This document shows positions 39,396 through 43,251 of a DNA stretch of 64,000 nucleotides, one piece after another (within the stretch, counting starts at the first letter, position 1; each line of letters opens with the position of its first letter). The notes under the pieces are model-generated. The model worked only from the letters and a program-made list of their open reading frames with translations, had not been told where the DNA came from and did no database searches. A program made the translations under genes and the position numbers. The DNA comes from Qipengyuania vesicularis (GTDB taxonomy: Bacteria > Pseudomonadota > Alphaproteobacteria > Sphingomonadales > Sphingomonadaceae): positions 186,001-250,000 of the forward strand of contig NZ_JAIGNJ010000003.1 in assembly GCF_019711415.1 (NCBI RefSeq). The letters run 5' to 3'.

Positions 39396-39797
39396 ATGGA
39401 TCGCGCGCTCGGAGAATTCCTGGCCGACAACGGCCTTTCCGAGACGCCCGACCTGTCCGCCATTCATGATACGGAGCGAGTCCGCGCCCTGCTGGTGGAG
39501 GCCGCGCGCGAGCGACGTGCGATGAGCTACTCCGAAATCCTCGGTCGGCTGGGCTTTCGCTTCACCCGCCCGAAGATGCGCGCCCTTTGCAAGACGCTCG
39601 ACACGCTAGACGCTGAAGGAAAGGCCCGCTCCGAGGCCCCGCTTGCGGTCCTCGTGGTGCGCGAGAGCGACGGCCTGCCGGGCCAGGGCTGGTGGATCTC
39701 CCGCCGCGATTTCAAGGGCGAATGGACCGGCGCCAAGGCGAAGCGATACGTCGAGAAGCTACAGGCCGAAACCTACGATTTCTGGGCGAGCCACTAG
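39396..39797 (+). CDS. Conserved hypothetical protein after HerA-like ATPase
   Basis: 133 residues, soluble, mixed alpha/beta: MDRALGEFLADNGLSET, a basic MSYSEILGRLGFRF segment resembling a helix-turn-helix (ILGRLGFRFTRPKMRALCKTLDTLD) and VVRESDGLPGQGWWISRRDFKGEWTG. Sphingomonads often carry this short family. The two-base gap to the HerA-like gene makes them one transcription unit, suggesting a partner or DNA-binding accessory. The stop overlaps the sensor kinase tail-to-tail by four bases. Function unknown. Confidence 0.82.
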   Translation: MDRALGEFLADNGLSETPDLSAIHDTERVRALLVEAARERRAMSYSEILGRLGFRFTRPKMRALCKTLDTLDAEGKARSEAPLAVLVVRESDGLPGQGWWISRRDFKGEWTGAKAKRYVEKLQAETYDFWASH

Positions 39798-41230
39798 CCC
39801 AGCGGAAGGCGCAGCTCGGCGCGCAATCCGCCCTGCTGCCGGTTGGCCAGCTCCAGCGAACCGCCATGCTGTTCTGCCACGGCCCGCGCGATCGTGAGAC
39901 CAAGTCCCGCCCCTCCGGTGGCCCGATTGCGACTGGCCTCGCCGCGTGTGAAGGGTTCGAGCATTTCGGCGATGCGGCCTTCGGGAATGCCCGGCCCATC
40001 GTCCTCGATCCGGATCACGGCATGGCCATCCTCGCGCGTCAGGCTGACTTCCGCCGTGCCGCCATAACGCAGCGCATTCGACACGAGGTTGCGCACGCCG
40101 CGCTTGAGCCAGGTGAGGTGCACAGGGGCTGCAAGGCGCTGACCATCGAGCAGCGCGACCGGCTGATTCATATCCTCGAATTCCTCGATCACCGAAACCA
40201 GCAGCGCATAGAGTTCGGTTCTTTCGGCGGGGCGATCGGCGCGGCCGATCCGGGCTAGCAGGAGGATCTCGTCGAGCGTGCGAGTGATGTCCTCGATCGA
40301 ATCGACCATGCGGCTGCGCGTCGCCTCGTCCTCGACGCCCTCGACGCGCACCCGAAGCGCGGCGAGCGGGGTCTTCAGATCGTGGCCGATCGCGCCCAGC
40401 ATCACGTCCTTCTCGTCGATCATCGCGCCGATCCGTGCTTCCATCGCATTGTGCGCGGCAATCAGCCGCCGCACGTCCTCCGGACCTTGCGGCTCCATCG
40501 GGGAGGCATGGACAGGCAATTGCGAGAAGTCCTCGGTCCGCTTCGTCAGCTGTGCGAGGGGGCCGGTGATACGGCGCAGGATCAGCCACAGGACAAAGCA
40601 GAGCAGCGCGGTCAGCGCCGCAGCGCGCAGGATCGGAAAGGCGGGTCCGAAATGCCTGTGCGGAGCGCGGACCGGCGCGCGGACGACCTCCCATGTGCCG
40701 CCGCTCGATATGCCGGCGACCGCGACTGTCTTCGGAAGATCTTCTTGCTGTAGACCCCGGCGCATTGCCATCCGGCGGAGGAAGCGCTGGGCCACCGGGT
40801 CGGCCGATGCGGGGCGCTCGACCACACGGATATCGTCGAACTCGCGGCCATTGTTGCGCAATGTCTCGCCGAGCCGTCGAGCAATCGCGGGACGGTCCTC
40901 GTCAACGGAAAAGCCCGGGAACTCCGCGCTGCGACTGAAATCGGTATTGCCGAATCTCCGTGCAACCCTATCTGCCCTGCGCGGCAGGCGGCGCTCTCCC
41001 TCGGCCCCGCGCCTTGGTCCGGGATCGATGCGAACCGCAGGAAACCCTTCTTCCGCGATCCGCGCCGCCGCAACGAAACGCAGGCCAAGCATGTTGACCA
41101 GCGCGGCTTCGGCCCGGTCCTTCTCGATATTCCAAGCGACAACCGCATTCACGCCCTGGACGACGAGCAGCGTCAGGGCGACCGCGAGCGTTACCTGTCC
41201 GAGCAGGCTCTTTGGCAGGAAGCGCGTCAT
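39794..41230 (-). CDS. Sensor histidine kinase
   Basis: 478 residues: one N-terminal helix (MTRFLPKSLLGQVTLAVALTLLVVQGVNAVVAW), a periplasmic region of about 170 residues rich in arginine, a second helix around AAALTALLCFVLWLILRR, a HAMP-like linker, phosphoacceptor His in GAIGHDLKTPLAALRVRV, and ATPase boxes with NLVSNALRYGG (N), DDGPGIP (G1) and GGAGLGLTIARAVAEQHGG (G2). The ATG overlaps the response-regulator stop (ATGA). With the adjacent OmpR-type regulator it is a two-component system. The signal is unknown; the EF-hand gene just upstream of the pair hints at calcium. Confidence 0.94.
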   Translation of the reverse strand: MTRFLPKSLLGQVTLAVALTLLVVQGVNAVVAWNIEKDRAEAALVNMLGLRFVAAARIAEEGFPAVRIDPGPRRGAEGERRLPRRADRVARRFGNTDFSRSAEFPGFSVDEDRPAIARRLGETLRNNGREFDDIRVVERPASADPVAQRFLRRMAMRRGLQQEDLPKTVAVAGISSGGTWEVVRAPVRAPHRHFGPAFPILRAAALTALLCFVLWLILRRITGPLAQLTKRTEDFSQLPVHASPMEPQGPEDVRRLIAAHNAMEARIGAMIDEKDVMLGAIGHDLKTPLAALRVRVEGVEDEATRSRMVDSIEDITRTLDEILLLARIGRADRPAERTELYALLVSVIEEFEDMNQPVALLDGQRLAAPVHLTWLKRGVRNLVSNALRYGGTAEVSLTREDGHAVIRIEDDGPGIPEGRIAEMLEPFTRGEASRNRATGGAGLGLTIARAVAEQHGGSLELANRQQGGLRAELRLPLG

Positions 41231-41961
41231 GCCGTTCCTTGCGCAGCGCGCGTGACATCGGCGCCGAACCGGTAGCCGCCGCCACGCACCGTCTGGATGA
41301 AGTGCGGATTCCTGCTGTCGGCCTCGATCTTGCGCCTTAGCCGACTGACCTGGTTGTCGACCGCGCGGTCGAACAGATGGGCTTCGCGGCCCTGCACCAT
41401 GTCGAGCAACTGGTCGCGGTCCAGCACGCGGCGCGGATGGTCGCAAAAGGCGCGAAGCATGCGGAACTCGGCGGTCGAGATGGGGACAAGGGTACCGTCC
41501 GGATCGCTGAGCCTCCGTTTCAGGGGATCAAGCGTCCATCCTTCGAAACGATAGAGCAGGTCCTCACCCGCAGCTTCGGGAGCACGTTCTGCACGGCGCA
41601 GCACCGAACGGATGCGCGCCACCAGTTCACGCGGCTCGAAGGGCTTGGTGACATAGTCGTCTGCCCCGATTTCGAGCCCGACGATGCGGTCCATCGCTTC
41701 GCCCTTTGCGGTCAGGAGGATGACCGGGAGCCCGCGCGCCTCAACGAGATGGCGGCAGAGCGATAGTCCGTCTTCACCCGGCATCATGATGTCGAGCAGC
41801 ACGAGATCGGGTGTGGCTGTTTCCAGCTCGCTCCGCGCCCTGGCTGCGCTTTCGGCCTGCGAGACGCTGAACCCCTGGCCGGAGAGATACTCCGCCAGGG
41901 GTTCGCGCAGGCTTCGCTCGTCATCGACGAGGAGGAGTTTGGTCGGCGCGCTGTCGTTCAT
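41227..41961 (-). CDS. OmpR/PhoB-type response regulator
   Basis: 244 residues: receiver with phospho-acceptor Asp in LVLLDIMMPGEDGLSLC, Thr/Lys of the switch (VILLTAKG, VTKPF), and a C-terminal winged helix ending in VSRLRRKIEADSRNPHFIQTVRGGGYRF, typical of OmpR/PhoB regulators that bind direct repeats. Translated just before the sensor kinase (ATGA). The EF-hand protein gene lies 45 bases upstream on the same strand, and dyad boxes are found in that gene's promoter region. Confidence 0.95.
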   Translation of the reverse strand: MNDSAPTKLLLVDDERSLREPLAEYLSGQGFSVSQAESAARARSELETATPDLVLLDIMMPGEDGLSLCRHLVEARGLPVILLTAKGEAMDRIVGLEIGADDYVTKPFEPRELVARIRSVLRRAERAPEAAGEDLLYRFEGWTLDPLKRRLSDPDGTLVPISTAEFRMLRAFCDHPRRVLDRDQLLDMVQGREAHLFDRAVDNQVSRLRRKIEADSRNPHFIQTVRGGGYRFGADVTRAAQGTA

Positions 41962-42006
41962 GTCGATCCGGCGACTACCGCTTGTGCGACCTGCGGCGCA
42001 AGCCGC

Positions 42007-42675
42007 TTACTGGCGACGCCCTTCACGGCGCGACTTGCGCTCTGCCTTCGCGGCCGCATGCTCTTCAGCCGAGACGACGCCATCACCGTCGCGATCGGCC
42101 TTGGCGAACCGGGCAGCCAGCGCCGCGTCGAATTCCGCGCGGGTCACCGACTTGTCGCCATTGGCATCCGCCATTCGCAGCATCTGCATCGCGCCGTGGC
42201 GTCCGCCACGCTTGCCGCGCTTGCCATCGCGACGCTCACCGCGCGCTTCGTGCATGGCCTTGAGTTCATCCTGCGATAGTCCGCCAGAATTGTCGGTGTC
42301 CATGCGTTCAAAATGGGCTGCCATCTTCTGGGCACGGTGCCCTTCGCGAGCCTCGCGTCGTTCGCTGCGACGCTCCATTCGCGCTTCATGCATGGCCATC
42401 ATCTCTGCATGCGAAAGCTCGCCGTCGCCATTGGTATCGGCCTCGGCGAATTTCTCCATGCGGTGGGCTGCGCGATCATCGGCGTCGACCACGCCATCGC
42501 CATTCGCGTCCATGCGTGAGAAAAGCGCCGCGCCATGGGCTTCCATTTCGGCCTGGGTGATGGTGCCGTCACCATCGGCATCGGGATTGTGCTTGCCGCC
42601 GTGATTATGCGCGAGAGCTGCCGTGCCGGCCAGGGCCAGTGCGGTGGCGGAAAGGGAAAGTGCGATCTTCTTCAT
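42007..42675 (-). CDS. Exported six-EF-hand calcium-binding protein
   Basis: 222 residues with a signal peptide (MKKIALSLSATALALAGTAALA), a His-containing start (HNHGGKHN) and six canonical EF-hand loops: DADGDGTITQAE, DANGDGVVDADD, DTNGDGELSHAE, DTDNSGGLSQDE, DANGDKSVTRAE and DRDGDGVVSAEE. A strongly basic stretch (ERRSERREAREGHRAQK) lies between loops three and four. Expected to bind about six Ca2+ in the periplasm. First gene of a run with the response regulator and sensor kinase; tandem dyads sit upstream. Confidence 0.94.
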   Translation of the reverse strand: MKKIALSLSATALALAGTAALAHNHGGKHNPDADGDGTITQAEMEAHGAALFSRMDANGDGVVDADDRAAHRMEKFAEADTNGDGELSHAEMMAMHEARMERRSERREAREGHRAQKMAAHFERMDTDNSGGLSQDELKAMHEARGERRDGKRGKRGGRHGAMQMLRMADANGDKSVTRAEFDAALAARFAKADRDGDGVVSAEEHAAAKAERKSRREGRRQ

Positions 42676-42801
42676 GTCTAAGCCTCCAGATGTGGAGAGC
42701 TGCGGCACGGCGGGAGGGGGGAGAACAGGTCTGTCCGCACCGCAGCTCGTGCATCCTCTCTGCAGGAGCAATGTCGCAGCAATATCCCGCAGGATGGCTG
42801 A

Positions 42802-42848
42802 ATTGTATCGCTTTGTCACAAACGTGAAGCGCCGTTCACGAACGTGAA
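42802..42848 (-). promoter_or_regulatory. Two dyad boxes 20 bp apart upstream of EF-hand gene
   Basis: TTCACGAACGTGAA (42835-42848) is a perfect palindrome; GTCACAAACGTGAA (42815-42828) is the same box with two changes. Their starts are exactly 20 bases apart, two helical turns, so they face the same side. On the minus strand TACAAT (42807-42802) follows as a possible -10, with the nearer box over the -35. This fits a site for the neighbouring OmpR-type regulator (inference). Confidence 0.6.
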
Positions 42849-42852
42849 ATCT

Positions 42853-43251
42853 CTAACGCGGCCGGTGCTGGGTGCCCTCGCCAGCCGTGATGAATATAGC
42901 CGTTGCCTCAAGCTCGATGTCGGCAATATGCCAAACGCCGGGCGCGTTGATCGCATAGTCGCCTGCACCAAGCGTCGTCTTCTCGATCCGCCCGTCGGGA
43001 AACTCCTGCGTCAGCACCATCTCGCCCGAGATGCAGATTACCACCTCATCTCCCAGCGGGTGCATTTCCCAGCTCGGCCAGCTTTCGGTGAAAGTGTGCT
43101 GGCTTACCAGTCTTCCTTCACGGCCATCGACCCCATTCCGCTTGCCGTAAGCTTCGTACCATTCCATCCCGTCGAAGGGTGGCTGAGGCACCGCCGTGGC
43201 GCCGAGGCCAAGGTGAATGAAGCTATCCGGCAGGCGGCGAGGGTCGGCCAC
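42853..43251 (-). CDS. Cupin-domain protein
   Basis: 132 residues, single cupin domain: EMHPLGDEVVICISGEMVLTQEF is motif 1 and NAPGVWHIADI is motif 2 with its His. A GTG start at 43251 overlaps the VOC gene stop by one base, so they are coupled. Its C-terminus lies next to the dyad boxes of the divergent-facing EF-hand promoter. Substrate unknown. The pairing of a cupin with a VOC protein repeats the pair found in the formaldehyde operon at 9.8-10.6 kb. Confidence 0.85.
   Translation of the reverse strand: MADPRRLPDSFIHLGLGATAVPQPPFDGMEWYEAYGKRNGVDGREGRLVSQHTFTESWPSWEMHPLGDEVVICISGEMVLTQEFPDGRIEKTTLGAGDYAINAPGVWHIADIELEATAIFITAGEGTQHRPR

Follow-up and report, generated by a model that had tools for sequence, protein, structure and literature searches.

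The window analysed here is a stretch of 64,000 nucleotides (G000:C3:186001-250000) from the 2.71 Mb genome of Qipengyuania vesicularis. This report concerns a gene cluster on its minus strand, encoding an EF-hand protein and a two-component system, together with the control region and messenger RNA (mRNA) leader in front of it. The EF-hand gene (42007-42675, minus strand; positions are those of the window) is a reading frame of 222 amino acids with an N-terminus that resembles a signal peptide by inspection and six EF loops, at residues 32, 56, 80, 126, 170 and 194. It is followed by a gene for a response regulator of the OmpR/PhoB family (41227-41961, minus strand; 244 amino acids; Pfam Response_reg and Trans_reg_C) and one for an EnvZ-like sensor histidine kinase (39794-41230, minus strand; 478 amino acids; Pfam HisKA and HATPase_c), which overlaps the regulator gene by 4 bases. 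An initial annotation, made from the letters of the window, had named six EF hands, an OmpR-type regulator and its kinase, and the EF loops and Pfam domains confirm all three proteins.

The same annotation had proposed that these genes belong together, and comparison within the genus bears this out. A full-length kinase ortholog (E ≤3.2e-121, the following match lying at 1.9e-56) is found in 52 of the 60 genus genomes, the window's own included; the closest kinase relative among those compared is 71% identical. The EF-hand, regulator and kinase genes are adjacent and in identical order at 50 of the 52 loci, and at the remaining two (L041, L085) the contig stops before the EF-hand gene. Judged by this gene order, the three genes are a conserved operon in Qipengyuania and its relatives.

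Control region of the operon

Upstream sequences were compared in 91 regions, 49 from the genus and 42 from elsewhere. L070, L041 and L085 were excluded from the leader comparison, being cut by contig ends. The non-genus loci were hand-picked, 45 from 80, and three with short contigs (L162, L169, L170) were dropped; some of the 42 are near-identical to each other, for example L163 and L173. Alignment of the 49 genus regions revealed repeated half-sites of the form GNKACA. In the window these are half-site A (GTGACA, 42814-42819), half-site B (GATACA, 42804-42809), 10 bp after A, and half-site C (GCGACA, 42772-42777), 42 bp after A, all on the minus strand. The two distances hold throughout the 91 regions. 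In one scan, with A-B fixed at 10 and A-C allowed to range from 41 to 43, every region gave 42; when 130 spacings were scanned freely, the 10/42 combination was best or joint best in 91/91. At this spacing, 76 regions reach the full score of 12 of 12 and the other 15 score 11, whereas none of 273 dinucleotide shuffles exceeds 10.

The letters of A and B are swapped in several relatives (GATACAA and GCGACAA), so the two are copies of one motif, and C reads GCGACA in 89 of the 91 regions. Element D (GGGATA, 42783-42788, minus strand), 11 bp before C, is a possible degenerate half-site, since it reads GACAAA in another genus, g20. Further upstream, element E (CGTGAAC, 42834-42840, minus strand) carries a TGAAC that lies 21 bp before A in 75/91. 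Downstream of C, the TA of a predicted −10 element follows after exactly 9 bp in 90 of the 91 regions; at this position (42757-42762, minus strand) the window has a degenerate CAGAGA.

The initial annotation had placed the operator elsewhere. It proposed that the regulator acts on two near-identical palindromes covering the −35 of a −10 element, TACAAT (42802-42807), and answers to calcium. The two boxes, TTCACGAACGTGAA (box 1, 42835-42848, plus strand) and GTCACAAACGTGAA (box 2, 42815-42828, plus strand), are indeed present, 20 bases apart, but the 6-base arms are perfect only in box 1. Those of box 2 have two mismatches, making it an imperfect palindrome, and 12 of its 14 letters agree with box 1. 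Half-site A is overlapped by box 2, and the conserved TGAAC of element E (42834-42838) falls in box 1; this pentamer keeps its position in relatives, whereas the palindrome itself is not conserved. When up to 3 mismatches were allowed in either orientation, neither box was found in the 260 bases that precede the EF-hand start in any of 48 informative relatives (L070, with 78 upstream bases only, is uninformative). The window's own locus is thus the sole genus locus with the palindromes, and they are rejected as the operator. The boxes are lineage-specific; with the nearest kinase relative at 71% identity, they may yet occur in closer strains as well. Comparison with the 48 relatives also places TACAAT inside a 10-bp direct repeat, as half-site B plus neighbouring letters, and puts the likely −10 about 45 bases farther downstream. 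Control through the palindromes and TACAAT in answer to calcium is therefore very improbable.

Within the window, 7 box-like sequences occur at up to 3 mismatches against 4.1 expected; a count of 7 is attained in 13 of 100 shuffles, which means no enrichment. The genome scan that the initial annotation had suggested returned the exact box just once and, at up to 2 mismatches, 19 matches against 9 in the reversed control, an excess partly explained by double counting, since a palindrome matches on both strands. A looser direct repeat of 15 bases (1 mismatch) was rejected, being below its control (159 vs 242). Most relatives examined share the control region and the leader hairpin described below, neither of which is the palindrome pair. 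Given the odd −10 and the palindromes, another regulator may share control in the window's lineage.

At zero mismatch, A-B-C matches once in the window's genome, before the EF-hand operon; a narrower A-B pattern also matches once, with 0 in the reversed control, and A-B-C with one mismatch gives 2 matches vs 1 in the control. The window's genome, with one clear site, is therefore a simple case for half-site spacing in OmpR-type promoters. A second zero-mismatch A-B-C site occurs in one of the 60 genus genomes (G026). When the pattern is extended by the −10 and ≤1 mismatch is allowed, 117 of the order's 296 genomes match; with the exception of G127 they all belong to the same family, and the reversed control gives 2 matches overall. 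Among 30 places returned as loci, the EF-hand gene lies downstream at 27, the regulator gene directly at 2, and 1 (L175) is unrelated. Of 20 further places, 13 stand before EF-hand genes (L223 repeats L176), 6 before noncoding-looking stretches and 1 before a long secreted-looking protein. Some of the six stretches are overlapped or followed by open frames, and their noncoding status is putative.

Half-sites of many OmpR-type regulators resemble each other. It is conceivable, then, that these sites serve another OmpR-type or global regulator, their recognition by the adjacent one being a prediction from conserved letters. Three observations speak against this: the single zero-mismatch site in the window's genome fronts the EF-hand operon; at L189 and L197, where the EF-hand gene is gone, promoter and leader hairpin are kept directly before the regulator gene; and the 8 genus genomes without the kinase have no zero-mismatch A-B-C site. 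We consider the involvement of another regulator instead of the adjacent one improbable. The initial annotation's claim that the adjacent regulator directly controls the EF-hand promoter is likely to be correct, through the conserved half-sites, to which the regulator is predicted to bind.

Two further sites were noticed in other genomes. The second site of G026 (L174, G026:C1) precedes a small secreted-looking protein of 113 amino acids, with a short leader. A second site in G271:C1 (L212) is a one-mismatch promoter before a secreted-looking protein of 681 amino acids.

Leader hairpin and its loop

Between the control region and the EF-hand gene, the window encodes a hairpin with a 15-bp stem and a 24-nt loop (42696-42749, minus strand; loop 42711-42734), expected to begin at about +1. 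Its loop contains CCTCCC (CCUCCC in RNA), which resembles an anti-Shine-Dalgarno (anti-SD) sequence. A second, small hairpin of the form CTCC-6-GGAG (42684-42697, minus strand) covers the Shine-Dalgarno (SD) sequence of the EF-hand gene. Across the 49 sequences of the genus, pairing in a 12-bp stem reaches 99.3%; there are 24 double-change cells, and 5 of 12 pairs are compensatory. None of 500 shuffles reached the observed pairing or covariation score, and 3 reached the count of double-change pairs. RNAalifold recovers the identical stem unaided.

A covariance model finds the hairpin in 51 of the 60 genus genomes, which are the genomes with the kinase except G006, where the contig is cut. Four genomes have a second, weak match (E 9.2e-5 to 8.2e-4). 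G048 shows two matches, both strong, one of them at a contig start. Among the non-genus loci, 38/45 match near the expected place at E up to 1. Their stems are 96.7% paired with 54 double-change cells in an alignment that is fitted to the model and retains two probably spurious rows (one of two L136 hits and the minus strand of L154). When the best-scoring stem of each of the 91 leaders is taken, it begins 12-15 nt past the first −10 base in 87, that is, at about +1. The hairpin is thus likely to stand at the 5' end of the transcript, whose start site is predicted from the position of the −10. The loop carries CCTCCC in 79 of the 91 leaders (composition shuffles: mean 14.8, maximum 25) and in 34 of the 42 outside the genus, against 5.6 in shuffles. 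Of the 91 tails, 87 have GGAG, which is paired on local folding in 76.

Two internal pairings were considered and set aside. A pairing of the loop with the leader's own SD, as in a pseudoknot in cis, finds no support, and a pairing of half-site C with the 3' arm of the stem was dropped, as the likely start lies downstream of C. The window leader (42500-43000) has no Rfam match up to E 10, and L090 and six relatives have none at the gathering score.

Genus g20 offers a further view of this element. Here the four-element promoter occurs at zero mismatch at two or three sites in 3 of 10 genomes (G179, G218, G309), with 0 in the reversed control. The sites before the g20 EF-hand/regulator operons score 15/16 in G179 and a weaker 13/16 in G218 and G309, and the leader hairpins of these operons have a CUCCCA loop. 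Each of the three genomes has two further, unlinked sites, before predicted RNAs that fold into several hairpins. Four of these (L205, L207, L208, L210) display CUCCC in three loops, while L209 and L211 display it in two, with CCCAC in two more. At these sites G218 and G309 differ little from each other and hardly count as independent.

A hairpin at the extreme 5' end of the mRNA for an envelope protein is known as a stabiliser of the ompA type. The leader hairpin may be no different, raising EF-hand output while its loop pairs with nothing. The position of the stem at about +1 and the variation of its letters under retained pairing agree with such a role. A stabiliser, however, needs no conserved loop, yet CCTCCC is far more frequent than in shuffled leaders; in addition, g20 has multi-hairpin forms away from the operon. 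The leader differs from the ompA type in its conserved C/U loop and in holding its SD within a second hairpin. We regard a stabiliser alone as unlikely, while allowing it an appreciable chance. The hairpin may have either role, stabilising the mRNA or working in trans as an anti-SD RNA, or it may combine the two; we favor the anti-SD role because the loop is conserved and because of the multi-hairpin RNAs of g20.

Regulator, kinase and EF-hand protein

The regulator has a receiver domain and a Trans_reg_C domain, both above their cut-offs (102.5 and 80.2 bits), which places it in the OmpR family. The best NCBIfam matches of regulator and kinase are the OmpR and EnvZ equivalogs, and the domain layout is that of OmpR/EnvZ systems. 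Both proteins, however, fall below the family cut-offs (regulator, NF007005: 233.1 bits, cut-off 331; kinase, NF007004: 159.9 bits, cut-off 415). The system differs further from OmpR/EnvZ in having an exported EF-hand gene first in the operon and, in the window's genome, one zero-mismatch site and not a regulon. A model of the kinase sensor domain (mean pLDDT 82.9) gave no Foldseek match at E ≤0.001. It is weakly similar to EnvZ (Z 5.0 over 87 residues, root-mean-square deviation 4.3 Å), a value that ties with that of an unrelated ribosomal chain, and to PhoQ (Z 3.4-4.1).

The EF loops of the first protein indicate metal-binding potential only, with calcium as a possible ligand. In a PDB search its best match was 8fns, which we take to be another lanmodulin, and its second-best was the lanmodulin 6mi5 (1.4e-5), so that a lanmodulin-like lanthanide binder, in a system answering to lanthanides, has to be weighed. 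The spacing of the loops is in its favor: 119 of 214 successive loop gaps in 50 genus EF-hand proteins are exactly 12 residues long, and the window's protein has such gaps between loops 1-2, 2-3 and 5-6. Adjacent EF hands 12-13 residues apart are described as a hallmark of lanmodulin in the accessible text of PMC10232371. On the other hand, lanmodulin has four EF hands, at least one of them with proline at loop position 2, whereas the window's protein has six loops and such a proline occurs in 0/264 loops, and the score against the NCBIfam lanmodulin family (NF053806) is 69 bits for a cut-off of 135. The XopAW effector family (NF041410) is likewise matched below its cut-off (83.3 bits, cut-off 120), and neither identity is adopted. 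A lanthanide system of this kind appears highly unlikely. In Sphingopyxis, one EF-hand gene is reported to be under EcfG, according to the accessible text of PMC7083833.

Proposed mechanism and related systems

OmpR-type activators typically place a dimer at the −35 position. We propose that the EnvZ-like kinase would phosphorylate the OmpR-type regulator, dimers of which would occupy half-sites A and B and, at the −35 position, C with D as a degenerate partner. The bound regulator would bring polymerase to a −10 without a good −35. In the resulting transcript, the leading hairpin may, like the ar14 small RNAs, pair with SD sequences through its CCUCCC loop, and the second hairpin would hold the SD of the EF-hand gene. 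The exported EF-hand protein may bind metal in the periplasm and could damp the kinase. The evidence leans towards this reading as a whole, in which a two-component operon of the envelope activates itself and has an anti-SD hairpin in its mRNA. Within it, the order of the genes, the geometry of the half-sites, the single zero-mismatch site of the window's genome, the covariation of the stem and the conservation of the loop are observed; binding by the adjacent regulator, the start site, the anti-SD action and the feedback of the EF-hand protein on the kinase are the parts that we infer.

Several observations weigh against this reading. It is drawn from sequence, and binding, start site and expression are predictions. 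The window, with its CAGAGA, is the sole exception at the −10 position among the 91 regions, and because of this degenerate −10 its genome fails the A-B-C plus −10 pattern. Element D keeps the form G..A.A in 90/91 and matches the half-site form G..ACA in only 4/91, which makes the second dimer site uncertain. The leader is not uniform either. The covariance model R1 misses 7 of the 45 non-genus loci, 3 of them cut by contig ends; 6 of the 91 loops lack CTCC; in L073 (G035) the loop has collapsed to 3 nt with the stem retained; L219-L221 and L224 retain the promoter without a comparable hairpin; and the leaders of L213-L218 fold differently. Loops match their own SD no better than swapped ones (4.38 vs 4.49), which speaks against a pseudoknot in cis. 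With regard to ar14 (RF02344), the window at 42500-43000 shows no match up to E 10, and the 9-letter ar14 motif occurs in 1 of the 91 loops. Two of the g20 RNAs, L208 and L210, reach 32.0 and 31.9 bits for a cut-off of 58.8. In genome-wide scans of 17 genomes, none gave a match above the cut-off and G218 and G309 gave none at E ≤0.1, while 1 of 14 control genomes gave a match.

According to the accessible text of PMC10746234 and PMC3927594, ar14 RNAs form three hairpins in which the stems vary and the loops present the anti-SD sequence CCUCCUCCC; one of these RNAs, NfeR1, silences ntrBC through such loops. The resemblance to ar14/NfeR1 lies in the hairpin with a conserved C/U-rich, anti-SD-like loop on a variable stem. 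The window leader differs in being a single hairpin within an mRNA leader, with CCTCCC in place of the CCUCCUCCC loop, and multi-hairpin forms were found only in g20, below threshold. Given the below-threshold Rfam scores, the resemblance is one of layout and loop and not of Rfam membership. It is possible, though we hold it doubtful, that the leader has a second role, that of an ar14-like small RNA of the anti-SD type silencing other mRNAs, with free-standing multi-hairpin forms in one genus. If so, a single transcript would yield a periplasmic metal-binding protein, a signalling pair and a silencing RNA derived from its 5' end.

Separately, the window's genome contains two sub-threshold ar14 hits. 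Sub-threshold ar14-like hairpins were recorded in this genome and in G008 and G043 (L225 at G000:C4:163179-163290, L226 and L228). The upstream letters of the G008 and G043 hits are similar to those of the window's genome, and the element has the look of a 3' region with C-rich loops. By inspection, no promoter of the four-element type was seen in the 110 bases before the two hits of the window's genome.

A comparable pairing of an envelope two-component system with a small RNA is found in Caulobacter, where ChvGI and UzcRS drive the small RNA ChvR (PMC12864828). The comparison is one of layout, the orthology of the regulators aside. ChvR, unlike the leader, is a separate RNA, and the main text of that paper contains the term 'EF-hand' 0 times. 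In Sphingopyxis, the small RNA SuhB is known (PMC6563040, accessible text). Among the titles and abstract openings listed from the open-licence PubMed Central literature, we found no report of this EF-hand/regulator/kinase operon. The analysis gives this family-wide operon a precisely defined, testable operator together with a structured leader that has no match in Rfam 15 within the stretches searched. If the proposed reading is correct, anti-SD RNA control would be tied to a two-component system of the envelope.

At the far end of the operon, a reading frame of 133 amino acids (39396-39797, plus strand), without a Pfam or NCBIfam match and seen by tblastn at the window's own locus only among 55 loci, lies tail-to-tail with the end of the kinase gene and overlaps it by 4 bases.

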